Shown: positions 29,333 through 55,121 of the stretch, in pieces
Layout: each line of letters starts with the position of its first letter
How positions within the stretch are numbered: the stretch's first letter is position 1
Origin: Pelosinus fermentans DSM 17108
Lineage (GTDB): Bacteria; Bacillota; Negativicutes; DSM-13327
Assembly: GCF_000271485.2 (NCBI RefSeq)
Contig: NZ_AKVN02000001.1
Span: forward strand, 4,904,501-4,968,500
Length of the DNA: 64,000 nt
Reading direction: 5' to 3'
Notes under the pieces: generated by a model
Told to the model about the DNA's origin: nothing
The model's input: the letters and a program-made list of their open reading frames with translations, nothing else
Databases searched by the model: none
Program-made: the position numbers and the translations under genes

Positions 29333-29821
29333 TCAGGTATCTATATGGTTCTTATTCTTTTTTCGCCGTTGTTTAAAAAAATCTTTCATAATTTGCGCAC
29401 ATTCGTCTCTACGTATTCCCGATGTAACCACCATGGAATGATTTAATGCATCATTTTGCGCTATATTAAAAATCGATTCAATTGCCCCTGCTTTCACATC
29501 AGCACTGCCGTAAACCAATCGGTCAATACGGCTCATGACCAACGCACCAGCACACATCGGACAAGGTTCTATCGTAACATACAATGTAAGTCCAGTCAAA
29601 CGCCATCGTCCAAGCTTTTGGCAAGCTTCCCGAATAGCAATCATTTCAGCATGAGCCGTAGCATCATGCCAGCTTTCACGCATATTGTGTCCTGCAGCCA
29701 CTATCTGACTATCCAGAACAAGCACAGCTCCAATCGGCACTTCACCAATCTCATAAGCCTTTTGTGCTTCCTCTAATGCTAATCCCATATAATAATCATC
29801 ATCCACTATCCGGTTCACCAC
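29333..29821 (-). CDS. tadA: tRNA-specific adenosine deaminase
   Basis: A 162 aa zinc deaminase that converts A34 to inosine in tRNA-Arg(ACG), needed to read CGU/CGC/CGA codons. The zinc site is complete: HAE in DATAHAEMIAIREA (His ligand, catalytic Glu) and EPCPMCAGAL (two Cys ligands). The start is uncertain: GTG at 29821, only 11 bases after the encoded CCA of tRNA-Arg(CCT), or in-frame GTG at 29806, which better matches the usual DDxYYM start. No strong RBS is seen for either. It lies within a tRNA operon whose first member is its own substrate. Confidence 0.95.
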   Translation of the reverse strand: MVNRIVDDDYYMGLALEEAQKAYEIGEVPIGAVLVLDSQIVAAGHNMRESWHDATAHAEMIAIREACQKLGRWRLTGLTLYVTIEPCPMCAGALVMSRIDRLVYGSADVKAGAIESIFNIAQNDALNHSMVVTSGIRRDECAQIMKDFFKQRRKKNKNHIDT

Positions 29822-29832
29822 ACAAAATACAA

Positions 29833-29909
29833 TGGTGCGCCCGGGAGGACTCGAACCACCGGCACACGGTTTAGGAAACCGTTGCTCTATCCGCCTGAGC
29901 TACGGGCGC
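29833..29909 (-). tRNA. tRNA-Arg (anticodon CCT)
   Basis: Acceptor GCGCCCG/CGGGCGC, D arm GCTC..GAGC, anticodon arm ACGGT-TTCCTAA-ACCGT (anticodon CCT), T arm GGTGG-TTCGAGT-CCTCC, encoded CCA. The T stem as written contains a central U-U mismatch; everything else is canonical. Confidence 0.93.
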
Positions 29910-29932: not shown

Positions 29933-30009
29933 TGGTGACCCCGGCAGGATTCGAACCTGCGACCTCTTGATTCGTAGTCAAGCGCTCTATCCAGCTGGGC
30001 TACGGAGTC
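29933..30009 (-). tRNA. tRNA-Arg (anticodon ACG)
   Basis: Acceptor GACTCCG/CGGGGTC (one G-U pair), anticodon arm CTTGA-CTACGAA-TCAAG (anticodon ACG), T arm GCAGG-TTCGAAT-CCTGC, encoded CCA. It is the substrate of TadA, encoded downstream in the same unit. Confidence 0.96.
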
Positions 30010-30047: not shown

Positions 30048-30077
30048 ATCTTACCATAGTTATATAGCTAAAGTCAA
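30048..30077 (-). promoter_or_regulatory. Sigma-A promoter of the tRNA-Arg/tadA/tRNA-Ser unit
   Basis: On the minus strand TTGACT (30077-30072), 18 bp, TAAGAT (30053-30048). Predicted start is about 30 bp before the tRNA-Arg(ACG) 5' end. The DnaA-box cluster begins 27 bp further upstream. Confidence 0.6.
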
Positions 30078-30103
30078 GTATTTTTATTATTTCGTTCTCT
30101 AAT

Positions 30104-30261
30104 TGTGGATAAAAGGATGTGGATAACTTTATCCACATCCTTTTATCCACATGTTTATTCCTCATGAAGCTATAAAATTCCCTCATTTTGAAGTGAAAAT
30201 CAGAATATGTCCCCATAGTTATCCACATTTGTTATCCTTTTGTGCATAACTATGGGGATAA
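30104..30261. promoter_or_regulatory. Cluster of DnaA boxes, including a 48 bp palindrome of four boxes
   Basis: Perfect TTATCCACA 9-mers occur at 30129-30137, 30143-30151 and 30219-30227 (plus) and at 30104-30112 and 30118-30126 (minus). TTATGCACA, also within the TTATnCACA consensus, is at 30241-30249 (minus), and a one-mismatch TTATCCCCA is at 30253-30261 (minus). The first four form a perfect inverted repeat with 23 bp arms. It lies between the ppk terminator and the tRNA promoter, with no dnaA, dnaN or other replication gene nearby. It fits a DnaA-titrating or regulatory cluster rather than oriC (inference). No gene is seen in 30010-30324. Confidence 0.75.
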
Positions 30262-30290
30262 CTAGTGAAATGAAGAGAAAATCAAGATAA

Positions 30291-30322
30291 AACAAGGCTT
30301 ATACGAAAGTATAGGCCTTGTT
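30291..30322 (-). terminator. Intrinsic terminator of ppk
   Basis: AACAAGGCTTATAC-GAAA-GTATAGGCCTTGTT hairpin with a TTTTATC tail on the minus strand. It lies 3 bp after the ppk stop. Confidence 0.85.
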
Positions 30323-30324
30323 CT

Positions 30325-32379
30325 TTAAAAATCTGCACCACCAGCTCGTTCTTGTGCTTCTTGATATAATTTTTGCTGACTATTAACGATCTTACCCCGG
30401 CGATATACCCGCCGATAGGTTCCGTCACTTTTCATCATATACGCTTTACGATTATCTTTTAGCATAATATGTAAAATATTTTTAATTCGTTCTAGAATTT
30501 CTGGATTATCAATGGGAAATAATAATTCGATCCTCTCACTTAAGTTACGATTCATCCAGTCCGCACTGGATAAATAAATTTTTTCCCTGCCACCATTTTT
30601 AAAATATAAAATACGATGATGCTCCAAAAAACGTCCTACAATGCTTCGCACCTTAATATTCTCGCTGACATGCTCAATCCCTGGTTTTAGAGCACAAATT
30701 CCACGAATAATAAGATCAATTTTAACCCCTTTGCTAGAAGCCTCATACAATTTAAGAATAATATCCTTATCCAGCAGAGAATTCATTTTAGCAATGATAT
30801 GGCCGTTTTTTCCCTCTTGAGCCAAAGCAATTTCCCGATCAATCAGCTCTTTTATTTTCTCTCGCAAACCAACAGGAGCAACTACCAGCTTCTTCCACGA
30901 TGGCGGTTCTGAATACCCCAACAGCATATTAAAAAAATCTGAAGCATCCGCTCCTATTTTTTCATTGGCAGTAAACAGACTCATATCAGAATATATGCGG
31001 GCTGTAATGTCATTATAGTTTCCCGTTCCCATGTGCACATACCGCTTAATACGAGCTTCTTCCTGCCGAATGATCAATGCCATTTTACCGTGGACCTTGA
31101 GACCTAACAATCCATAAATTACATGACAGCCAGATTCTTCTAATTTTCTGGCCCATAAAATATTGTTTTCCTCATCAAAACGAGCTCGAACTTCCACTAC
31201 AACCGTAACTTGTTTCCCATTTTCAGCAGCTTGAGCCAGAGCGCGGACAATGGAAGAATTACCGCTCACTCTATATAAAGTCTGCTTAATCGCTAACACT
31301 TTAGGATCAACTGCTGCCTGACGAATAAAGTTCACCACAGGCATAAAAGATTCGTAAGGATGATGCAGTAAAATATCTTTCTCGCGAATCACGTCAAATA
31401 GATCCTCTGCATCGTTTAATCCGATGGGAATCTGTGGAATGAGGGGCTCATAACGCAGGTCATCAAAACCTTGAAGGTCCATGACCTTCATAAAACAAGA
31501 TATATCAATGGGACCTGTCACTTCATACAAATCCTGTTCATCCATATTAAATATATCCAGCAAGAACTCTTTTAAAAAAGATTTGTTTGTTTTGGTCATT
31601 TCCAAACGTACTGCTTCGCCCCGTTTACGCTGACGCAGAGATTTTTCTACCTCGGCCAGCAGATCTTCGGCACCTTCACCATCAATTAACAAATCCGAAT
31701 TACGCGTAATGCTAAAGGCTACAATATCCTTAATCGTATAGCCGCAGAATAACTCAGAACAATGTTTTTTTATAATGTCTTCTAATAATACAAATTGTTT
31801 GCCAACACTTTGGTCAGGCACTTCAATAATTCGTGGCAGTGCATTGGGAACGGGAAGAATTGCTGTCTGCAGCTCCTCTTTTCCCTTCGTTAGCAGCACT
31901 GCCAGATTTAAGCTACGATTAGCCAATAGAGGGAATGGATGACTGGCATTTACCGCTAATGGAGTAAGCAATGGATAAATCGTGTTATAAAAATGCTCTT
32001 CTACCCACTGCCGCCCGCTAACCGATAAGCTCTCCACATCACTTACATAAATATCATGATTTTGCATAGCACCAAGAATCTTCTTTAGATACCAATACTG
32101 CAGCCGCACCATCTCCCGCACTGCTTCATCGATTAACTGAAGCTGCTGTGCTGCATTAAACCCTGCAGGATCTCTCTTACCAATACCGCTTTCCACTTGC
32201 TGTTTCAGTCCAGCAACACGAATCATAAAAAACTCATCCAGATTAGAACTGGCAATCGCCACAAATTTTAATCGTTCCAGCAAAGGTTTTTCAGGATCAT
32301 TTGCTTCTTCTAAAACCCGATGATTAAACTTCAGCCAGCTTAACTCCCTATTTAAGAAATTCTCTTGTTTATCAAACAT
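30325..32379 (-). CDS. ppk: Polyphosphate kinase (PPK1 family)
   Basis: A 684 aa PPK1, usual length, which reversibly polymerises the gamma-phosphate of ATP into polyphosphate. The four-domain order is visible: N-terminal helical domain (NRELSWLKFNHRVLEEA), head domain, and two PLD-like C-terminal domains. The phosphorylated His is in YVHMGTGNYND (about 430), and SADWMNRNLSERIELLFP (about 600) is the second conserved segment. It is divergent from the ppx/gppA-type exopolyphosphatase, so synthesis and degradation of polyphosphate are encoded back to back. Confidence 0.95.
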   Translation of the reverse strand: MFDKQENFLNRELSWLKFNHRVLEEANDPEKPLLERLKFVAIASSNLDEFFMIRVAGLKQQVESGIGKRDPAGFNAAQQLQLIDEAVREMVRLQYWYLKKILGAMQNHDIYVSDVESLSVSGRQWVEEHFYNTIYPLLTPLAVNASHPFPLLANRSLNLAVLLTKGKEELQTAILPVPNALPRIIEVPDQSVGKQFVLLEDIIKKHCSELFCGYTIKDIVAFSITRNSDLLIDGEGAEDLLAEVEKSLRQRKRGEAVRLEMTKTNKSFLKEFLLDIFNMDEQDLYEVTGPIDISCFMKVMDLQGFDDLRYEPLIPQIPIGLNDAEDLFDVIREKDILLHHPYESFMPVVNFIRQAAVDPKVLAIKQTLYRVSGNSSIVRALAQAAENGKQVTVVVEVRARFDEENNILWARKLEESGCHVIYGLLGLKVHGKMALIIRQEEARIKRYVHMGTGNYNDITARIYSDMSLFTANEKIGADASDFFNMLLGYSEPPSWKKLVVAPVGLREKIKELIDREIALAQEGKNGHIIAKMNSLLDKDIILKLYEASSKGVKIDLIIRGICALKPGIEHVSENIKVRSIVGRFLEHHRILYFKNGGREKIYLSSADWMNRNLSERIELLFPIDNPEILERIKNILHIMLKDNRKAYMMKSDGTYRRVYRRGKIVNSQQKLYQEAQERAGGADF

Positions 32380-54400: not shown

Positions 54401-55121
54401 CGCCTGACTTTCCTGCTTCCAGGCAAAGAGCATCCAGCTGCTGACCTGCCTGTTCCAAATCCAATATGATCTTCTCCCGGATCAACTGAGACCAAGGTGT
54501 TTGATCAACCCTTGTCCCTTCCGGCAAGGCAAAACGCTTAGAAAGATCAGCCAGCCAGTCTTCTGGCCACGGATGACTCTGGGAAAAGTTATATAACCCT
54601 AACACCAGCTGATACAAAGAATCATCACTCTGCTCATCCCCGTAGTGTTCCACCAGATCCAAAAACGTCTCATCTCCTTGAGCATATTTGCTCTCAAAGA
54701 GGGCTTCTAAAACTTCGGTCTTCATAATCGTCACTTCTGCCTGACCCCCAATGCGAAACTGAGGATCTAAATCTAAGAGATGAAAATTCTGCCGTACAAT
54801 GTTTTGACAAAAAGCATGGATGGTTGAAATAGCGGAGGAATTTAACAGTGCCAGCTGCCGCTGAATATGCTCAGAACGAGGCTGTTTCTTCAGGGCTTCA
54901 TTCAACGCCGAGCCGATTCTTCCCCGCATTTCAGCTGCCGCCGCATTGGTAAATGTAACGACTAGTACCTTATCCACATCAATTGGCTGGTCTTTATCCA
55001 ATATACGGGAAATGATCCGCTCAACCAATACAGAAGTTTTACCCGATCCAGCGGCTGCCGCTACCAATATATTTTTATTGCGAGTCTCAATTGCCAATAA
55101 CTGCTGTTCAGACCAACTCAT
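51393..55121 (-). CDS. addA: ATP-dependent helicase/nuclease subunit A
   Basis: A 1242 aa UvrD-type helicase with C-terminal RecB-like nuclease. Motif I AAAGSGKTSVLVERI (about 24), motif II VDEYQDTN (about 395), motif III GDVKQSIYRFRLAEP, motif V SIHKSKGLEFPLVFVADLG (about 810), motif VI LYVALTRAREKL (about 900), and nuclease motif LVDYKTDW (about 1195). With AddB it processes double-strand breaks to Chi-terminated single strands for RecA loading. Its start overlaps the addB end by 14 bp, so translation is coupled. Same gene order (addB-addA) as other Firmicutes. Confidence 0.96.
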   Translation of the reverse strand: MSWSEQQLLAIETRNKNILVAAAAGSGKTSVLVERIISRILDKDQPIDVDKVLVVTFTNAAAAEMRGRIGSALNEALKKQPRSEHIQRQLALLNSSAISTIHAFCQNIVRQNFHLLDLDPQFRIGGQAEVTIMKTEVLEALFESKYAQGDETFLDLVEHYGDEQSDDSLYQLVLGLYNFSQSHPWPEDWLADLSKRFALPEGTRVDQTPWSQLIREKIILDLEQAGQQLDALCLEAGKSGGVEAYVDTFMADRAVLDEVLSAAAHSWERLADAIASCKFEKIAAVPKGTDESLKKYFQRGRQKVKDKVNDCKVHFFDRPAEELLADMRLIAPVVETLGKLVIEFGQEFAKMKRSKDVLDFNDLEHFCLEILLAPTSRSGEIEPSSVAIELQERYAEVMVDEYQDTNGVQETILRLVASSTQPNLFLVGDVKQSIYRFRLAEPELFMEKYRHYPTAGSGYTRIDLSQNFRSRAGVLHAVNFLFVQLMAPRIGELEYGEAEKLNPGPDYPEEPGILLEGPVELCIVDRDEAQEPMDLPEGEMDNGEGVESPDGPAAELMEEAELSGFELEARLIAKKMAEYMTGSYRVYDKSLKQYRNLAWRDIVILLRSVKGKANVMLDVLRKAGIPAYAELDAGYFREIEVQIMVALLSVIDNPRQDIALAAVLRSPLVGFTTEELAEVRLCCPGEELWSALSYEIEQESIDEKTQKKLAAFVRQFEKWRNLSRRKGVPELIWQIYRDTGYYDYVGGMPGGMLRQANLRALYDRARQYESTNFRGLFRFLRFVERMQDKGSDLAVARALGESEDVVRIMSIHKSKGLEFPLVFVADLGKNINLQDSKALVLSHKILGVGPYVTNPELRFRYPTLARHGIRHKLIMETKAEELRILYVALTRAREKLILVGSVSKLAKKAAGWCQYTDRLQPTLPDAMIAGAGNYLDWLCPAVARHEGGALLREYGECEQEPSHIFADDLSAWKVDIYSRSQLLEAGEEQSETTTLLENIRTLQPVEGGEDFVWVEKTLGWQYAYQHIVGKPAKLSVTEIKRRFDTEVEESSSQPIFAKKSIALRPRFIQQSVGLTGAERGTLMHSIMQQMDLQGNLSESGIKEQITAMVKKEMILPEHAEIVDIKGVAAFFQSSLGQRLCASPKVRRELPFSLVLPAEKFYDDMVGAGEGIFIQGILDVLFDEADGLVLVDYKTDWVTDSSELIDRYSVQLNLYAEAVEKIFKQPVIEKYLYVFSTKEAVRI

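Follow-up and report, generated by a model that had tools for sequence, protein, structure and literature searches.

A conserved three-box DnaA-box module near the replication origin of Negativicutes: a candidate DnaA control locus preceding a tRNA-Arg unit

What does a dense group of DnaA boxes do when it lies outside of the replication origin, between a polyphosphate kinase gene and a tRNA-Arg unit? The question is raised by a locus of Pelosinus fermentans DSM 17108 (genome G000), for which a stretch of 64,000 nucleotides of contig C1 (5,009,075 bp), here called the window, was analysed. A pattern search of the window located six exact TTATNCACA boxes and one single-mismatch box within the 158 bp at 30104-30261 (C1:4934604-4934761; Table 1), and thus confirmed the initial annotation, which had listed five perfect boxes, one variant and one box with a single mismatch. 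The exact matches start at 30104, 30118, 30129, 30143 and 30219 (all TTATCCACA) and at 30241 (TTATGCACA); the remaining TTATNCACA match within the window, the seventh, starts at 54970. The number of boxes per 64-kb window is not extreme: 7 matches compare with a shuffle mean of 3.2, and 5 of 100 shuffles reach 7. It is the clustering, rather than the box number, that is the extreme property of the window.

Table 1. Features of the box cluster and of its neighbours, in window coordinates
Feature	Position	Strand	Remarks
tadA, tRNA adenosine(34) deaminase	29333-29821	minus	NF008113 over cut-off
tRNA-Arg (cct)	29833-29909	minus	second tRNA-Arg gene
tRNA-Arg (acg)	29933-30009	minus	most widely kept downstream neighbour
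Promoter-like TTGACT-18-TAAGAT of tRNA-Arg unit	30048-30077	minus	26 bp from last box
48-bp perfect palindrome	30104-30151		boxes 4-7; inverted-repeat search
box7, outermost	30104-30112	minus	26 bp from -35-like hexamer of tRNA promoter
box6	30118-30126	minus	exact match
box5	30129-30137	plus	14 bp beyond box4
box4	30143-30151	plus	orientation as box3; start-to-start distance to box3 76 bp
Second inverted repeat, around box2/box3	30210-30258		arms 30210-30227 and 30241-30258, 18 nt, 94%; absent from initial annotation
Three-box module	30219-30261 (G000:C1:4934719-4934761)	minus	box1, 3 bp, box2, 13 bp, box3; 1 mismatch
box3 TTATCCACA	30219-30227	plus	opposed to box1 and box2; minus-strand reading TGTGGATAA
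box2 TTATGCACA	30241-30249	minus	exact match
box1 TTATCCCCA	30253-30261	minus	differs from TTATCCACA at one position; many relatives have the exact box
Inverted repeat just past ppk, then TTTTATC on minus strand	30291-30322	minus	putative ppk terminator; absent from terminator-scan list
ppk, polyphosphate kinase 1	30325-32379	minus	NF003920 and TIGR03705 over cut-off

In the complete genome (5,027,115 bases), TTATNCACA occurs at 234 places, 117 on the forward and 117 on the reverse strand; the corresponding numbers for the reversed control are 47 and 54. By our own arithmetic, this frequency corresponds to about 0.007 expected boxes per 146 bp, compared with the six exact ones found, and the cluster is therefore above chance. 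A chance origin, which the initial annotation had called very unlikely, was ruled out by this density relative to the genome background. Box pairs at most 30 bp apart, searched for in three orientations across the whole genome, are confined to five regions, namely 71.8 kb, 109.6 kb, oriC at 162 kb, 1034.9 kb and the ppk/tRNA-Arg cluster. Six boxes are present only in oriC and in the ppk/tRNA-Arg cluster, and the latter contains the sole divergent pair of the genome. The genome count and the mapping relative to dnaA/oriC are those that had been proposed as a check. A repeated element was ruled out, as the module pattern and the divergent pair each occur in one place of the genome, and so was plasmid-borne sequence, as no plasmid match to 30060-30325 was obtained.

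Two of the other clustered regions were inspected by eye. At C1:109616-109636 (L230), a convergent pair, TTATCCACA-AAC-TGTGGATAA, lies between minus-strand ORFs resembling dnaB and purA. At C1:1034902-1034943 (L231), four near-consensus boxes in 42 bp are located directly upstream of a minus-strand ORF of 1195 aa that is pyruvate:ferredoxin oxidoreductase-like. Among the 100 TTATNCACA matches listed, those on the minus strand extend to 1.02 Mb and those on the plus strand to 2.97 Mb; as the number listed seems to be limited per strand, the motif looks strand-biased with the direction of replication.

The description of the cluster as being far from any replication gene proved misleading. dnaA is located at C1:163006 and, provided that C1 is circular, the cluster lies 237 kb to its left. 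This dnaA scores over the NCBIfam cut-off, and the last domain of its product carries GGRDHTTV, a motif that counts in support of the DnaA-control reading. dnaA and the ORF that follows it (judged by eye to be dnaN from its position and sequence) occupy C1:162.5-165.5 kb together with boxes of their own. The cluster is thus 237 kb off the dnaA/dnaN location that characterizes oriC, and an orphan or second oriC was ruled out, dnaA being elsewhere. The locus has the make-up of a DnaA-box cluster (DBC), with several consensus DnaA boxes clustered in an intergenic position away from dnaA and oriC.

Aligned over the module-to-promoter stretch, six Pelosinus sequences have 56 invariant columns among the 63 that belong to boxes, compared with 47 among 151 others, which indicates strong constraint on the boxes. 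After addition of two sister-genus sequences, the corresponding values are 52 of 63 and 20 of 151; as columns are not independent, P values derived from this alignment are a rough guide only. Four of the boxes had been noted to form a 48 bp palindrome with 23 bp arms, and the inverted-repeat search found precisely this: the arms, 30104-30126 and 30129-30151, are 23 nt long, 100% complementary and 2 nt apart. The palindrome is complete in three of the six Pelosinus sequences, and the outer box decays in the other three.

Comparison of the regions downstream of ppk across families revealed a module that is common to the class. It consists of box1 (TTATCCACA), a gap of 3 bp, box2 (TTATNCACA), a gap of 13 bp and box3 (TGTGGATAA); the class-wide pattern comprises these three boxes and no fourth one. 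At a threshold of at most 3 mismatches, the module was detected in 104 of 380 Negativicutes genomes, corresponding to 74 of the 234 better ones and to 49 of 102 genera, while the reversed control was detected in one genome; at the same threshold, 276 genomes had no module. Among the 104 genomes, 61 are outside family f20 and 43 belong to it. The three-box module is the ancient, conserved core of the cluster, and the palindrome, which makes up the other half, is a local elaboration.

Counts of fourth boxes, small genes and tRNA-Arg genes refer to 55 of the 61 non-f20 genomes, as G004, G093, G291, G310, G311 and G313 are without a locus used; the 43 f20 genomes were left out of the ppk-linkage, fourth-box and phasing counts. 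In 46 of the 55 loci, a further minus-oriented box follows 40-100 bp beyond box3, and in nine it is absent. The offsets of this fourth box fall into three groups with family means of 54.0, 65.25 and 76.1 bp. Phasing was assessed with one median per family. For the 19 families, the resultant length is 0.74 at 10.5 bp and 0.79 at 11 bp, and none of 20,000 uniform draws was as high, under a uniform null and with families taken as independent. The fourth box is thus displaced in steps of a helical turn, and it is therefore plausible to assume that DnaA molecules on box3 and box4 make contact across a loop.

The module recurs at origin-proximal places across much of the class. For 14 ppk-linked genomes with dnaA on the same contig, it lies 105-379 kb from dnaA, on the opposite strand, which amounts to 2.0-9.0% of the genome, although at least three of these distances (G008, G298, G088) stem from partial contigs, which favours short values. 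G019, G029, G031, G052 and G123 are outside of this set. The module is to the left of dnaA in 12 of the 14 genomes and to the right in two f6 genomes. Its origin-proximal place may simply follow from the place of its neighbours.

These neighbours were rightly named by the initial annotation as ppk and a tRNA-Arg/tadA unit, with the refinement that the unit contains two tRNA-Arg genes and that the promoter-like site is 26 bp, and not 27 bp, from the last box. The product of ppk shares 98-99% identity with entries from Pelosinus fermentans. The module is located downstream of ppk on the same strand, at a distance of less than 100 bp to 9.2 kb, in 48 of the 61 non-f20 genomes; for 17 f1/f25 genomes, the linkage was scored manually. 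Of the 13 without this link, six gave no match to ppk, whereas in seven ppk is distant or on a different contig. In f20 genomes, contigs with the module and contigs with ppk were compared by eye, and none were close. A role in ppk expression, which had been proposed, is not borne out, given that in 48 of 48 linked genomes the module follows the 3' end of ppk and that in 13 of 61 it was not found near ppk.

On the other side, 36 of 51 non-f20 loci, from 18 families, have a same-strand tRNA-Arg gene (30 acg, 6 cct) that starts no more than 500 bp beyond the module, so that a link confined to one family was ruled out; tRNA-Arg is also found behind the module in G304. The count leaves out G002, G029, G078 and G301, with less than 500 bp downstream, although in locus L039 of G002 a cut-off tRNA-Arg was recognized by eye. 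The 15 loci without tRNA-Arg within 500 bp comprise nine of the ten scored from f25 as well as G318, G077 (tRNA-Arg at 800 bp), G289 (tRNA-Arg at 1.8 kb), G290, G292 and G031. In the Sporomusa-type family f25, the boxes are thus kept without tRNA-Arg and with other genes downstream. Among seven f20 loci that were checked, one has tRNA-Arg and six lack ppk, the small gene and tRNA-Arg. Each of these three neighbours is missing somewhere with the module being kept; no scored non-f20 locus, however, is without all three. The function might therefore depend on the neighbourhood, and in particular on tRNA-Arg. In L283 and L284 (G091 and G092, f16), the module is right behind purL (L284 by eye) and before tRNA-Arg(acg), with neither ppk nor the small gene.

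The small gene encodes a protein of about 96 aa. It is found on the same strand within 1 kb upstream of the module in 43 of 55 non-f20 loci, in 40 of them within 180 bp, and also where ppk is elsewhere. G019 was scored as lacking it, because an equally scoring, overlapping module on the opposite strand was picked; the gene is 12 bp upstream of the first. In f20, none of seven loci has it within 1 kb and one has it at about 2.2 kb. It was not seen in the 64-kb window of Pelosinus. The protein is exemplified by L044:6413-6700, with homologues for example in L042, L043, L046, L052-L056, L182-L190 and L285-L287; G16, Y20, F60, W82 and W91-S92 are conserved, and the sequence frequently ends with TGVxVDWSRP. 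For three versions, no Pfam or NCBIfam family scored over cut-off, and for 9 of 11 versions PHROGs gave a weak match to phrog_26403, a family of unknown function. The best hit of a PDB sequence search had an E-value of 0.011. The AlphaFold model is of high confidence, with a mean pLDDT of 91.9, and no solved structure stands out for it in Foldseek (best E 0.48) or VIA-align (best Z 3.5).

Further box arrays were noticed in other genomes. In L191-L194 (G360, G362, G368, G372; f35), a dense array forms part of the coding sequence of an RluA-family pseudouridine synthase, with boxes at 0, 12, 75, 96 and, in two genomes, also 108 bp. They are read as V-D-N-like repeats between two family-match stretches (L193 checked), and in G362 and G368 some 210 kb separate the array from dnaA (G368 being taken as circular). 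L181 (G292, f23) contains a four-box array directly behind tsaD/gcp, with groES/groEL-like ORFs farther on (by eye); the gene neighbour is the same as that of the B. subtilis cluster 'downstream of gcp'. Similar arrays, again identified by eye, occur near a trimeric-autotransporter-like gene in L195/L196 (G061, with two copies, and G063) and within a prophage-like segment in L197 (G116).

Given what is known of DnaA, the protein very probably binds the cluster. The function that we favour is DnaA control of the DBC/datA kind, by an origin-proximal locus that heads a tRNA-Arg unit and would mainly withdraw DnaA, and we consider its chances to be about even. A titration or regulatory site of this kind had been put forward as a candidate, and it is still the best reading in view of the constraint, the recurrence in the class and a geometry that fits known modes of DnaA. 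The tandem of box1 and box2 would be bound by a DnaA dimer, and DnaA on box3 would stand head-to-head against this dimer. By analogy with known sites, the DNA between box3 and box4 would loop, such that DnaA on box4, and in Pelosinus also on boxes 5-7, could join the same face and give rise to a high-affinity complex of several DnaA molecules. As no more than a few per cent of the genome separate it from oriC, the locus is copied soon after initiation. The new copy would then withdraw DnaA by titration and perhaps also by changing the bound nucleotide, and thereby lower the chance of premature re-initiation. The near-origin position favours such a negative role in initiation, which, like the looping, is assumed by analogy. 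The observations suggest a so far undescribed control site, which may tie chromosome copying to growth.

Among the points against withdrawal of DnaA as the main function are the 276 class genomes with no module at the threshold used, the wide linkage to tRNA-Arg, which lowers our confidence in it, and the head-to-head topology, which resembles that of DARS, a type of site that activates DnaA. The linkage makes transcription control possible: DnaA bound upstream would activate or tune the tRNA-Arg promoter and thus tie the supply of arginine tRNA, and of tadA, which modifies tRNA-Arg(acg), to replication. The link to tRNA expression that the initial annotation had considered has gained weight through the 18 families in which it is seen, but with 15 exceptions among 51 loci, nine of them in f25, it is not obligatory. 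tRNA-Arg follows within 500 bp also in G091, G092 and G080, where ppk and the small gene are elsewhere, and a promoter-like hexamer pair (at least 9 of 12 positions) precedes the tRNA in 35 of 36 loci; in addition, datA of E. coli is coupled to a tRNA operon (PMC10950094). In contrast, the module and the tRNA are separated by a variable distance of 117-467 bp. The best promoter-like site is free of overlap with exact boxes in all 36 loci, and in the 29 with a box there and a promoter score of at least 9, this site is preceded by the end of the last box at a distance of 14-240 bp. Simple repression therefore does not fit, whereas activation or a link via supercoiling could. On this evidence, transcription control is a possible but rather unlikely main function.

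The DARS topology makes a positive role possible as well. In this case, head-to-head DnaA molecules on box3 and box2, stabilized by box1, would promote the release of ADP and raise the amount of active DnaA before initiation. The cores of E. coli DARS1 and DARS2 have one box (Box I) opposed to a tandem pair (II and III) whose boxes are 12 bp apart, with a gap of 3 bp, and the module shares this order in reverse reading. However, its opposed boxes are separated by 13 bp instead of the 5 bp of the DARS cores (PMC5742627), so that the gaps are 13 and 3 bp rather than 5 and 3 bp. To fit the module pattern, DARS1 and DARS2 need 6 and 7 mismatches, respectively, among the 24 scored positions, and five shuffled 64-kb windows fit it with 6-7. 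Moreover, DARS sites are farther from oriC (RD 0.33 and 0.21) than datA (RD 0.10; PMC5010248), and we regard DARS-like reactivation as improbable. Even less probable is a protein-plus-site unit, in which the module would be partnered with the protein of about 96 aa. The close upstream position of its gene in most non-f20 loci argues for such a unit; on the other hand, the boxes are behind the gene, the searches placed neither a function nor a fold, and the gene was not found upstream in eight Pelosinus and sister-genus loci nor in G091, G092 and G080, all of which keep the boxes. Finally, the palindrome might act as a terminator or as a single-strand DnaA hairpin, that is, a primosome-type site, instead of providing duplex binding sites. 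As a single strand, it forms a 22-bp hairpin of -23.6 kcal/mol (z -11), and it is among the plus-strand hits of the terminator scan. Its linkers are mirrored fully in all six Pelosinus sequences in three versions (AAGGA/TCCTT, AGTGA/TCACT, AGTAA/TTACT), and a fourth (CGCGA/TCGCG) is mirrored in f18. Duplex binding of DnaA needs no mirrored linkers; therefore, hairpin formation or palindrome-templated repair is possible. Yet the T-rich tail is weak, only two of five linker positions are mirrored in the sister genus, and the Sporomusa-type rows have no such palindrome and keep the module, which leaves this explanation with hardly any likelihood.

A bolder proposal would join several of these elements, and we hold it to be doubtful. 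The locus might be an ancient replication-translation hub of Negativicutes, with a DnaA-switching core of DARS topology, its own 13-bp geometry and a phased loop to the fourth box. It would be situated immediately before the tRNA-Arg(acg) promoter, in Pelosinus adjacent to tadA, and the protein of about 96 aa would be its dedicated partner in the majority of lineages. Negative supercoils left by transcription would favour the DnaA complex, such that tRNA output and growth rate would set the withdrawal or conversion of DnaA, and the hub would have arisen apart from datA and DARS.

An extra-oriC control locus made of DnaA boxes is of a known kind. The fixed module, the stepped fourth box and the gene linkage were not found described; for the locus, these two features and the linkage to ppk, the small gene and tRNA-Arg, this refers to the matches listed from the open-licence literature. 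In B. subtilis, loss of the six DBCs outside of oriC leads to early initiation (PMC5295017, PMC13220808), and the effect of these clusters (Okumura et al. 2012, as cited in PMC5295017, PMC13220808 and PMC5010248) depends on their nearness to oriC (PMC5010248). They are multi-box intergenic clusters with the DnaA consensus, as is the module locus. The six top sites outside of oriC are ywcI/vpr, gcp/ydiF, trmE/jag, ywlC/ywlB, yqeG/sda and yydA (PMC4447404, Table 1), and the Pelosinus cluster with its neighbours ppk, tRNA-Arg and tadA is not orthologous to any of them. Neither a fixed three-box module nor a stepped fourth box is among the DBC features described in the available parts of these sources. 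The gap of 3 bp between box1 and box2 resembles that of the double boxes of E. coli, whose DnaA has an in vivo preference for pairs with a spacing of 2 or 3 bp (PMC11317965); these are mostly single pairs at target sites, whereas the tandem of the module is part of a larger fixed array. According to a 2026 review, B. subtilis is without datA and DARS (PMC13220808). The way in which DnaA is limited outside of oriC in organisms of the Firmicutes type is little understood, and the fixed geometry offers a concrete DNA substrate together with a candidate partner protein.

Among the known systems, E. coli datA is similar in being near oriC and beside a tRNA; its boxes are joined across a bent stretch, and it is sensitive to supercoiling and transcription (PMC5742627, PMC10950094), negative supercoiling being stimulatory (PMC10950094, PMC5742627). 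When moved to the terminus, datA works less well, as origin-proximal dosage is needed (PMC5010248). Its box order and spacing are different, with at best 9 mismatches to the module pattern, and it is downstream of its tRNA operon, whereas the Pelosinus site is upstream of the tRNA. The placement of the module beside a tRNA promoter thus parallels that of datA beside tRNA-Gly in an unrelated arrangement, and a link between tRNA output and DnaA control therefore becomes testable in a second phylum.
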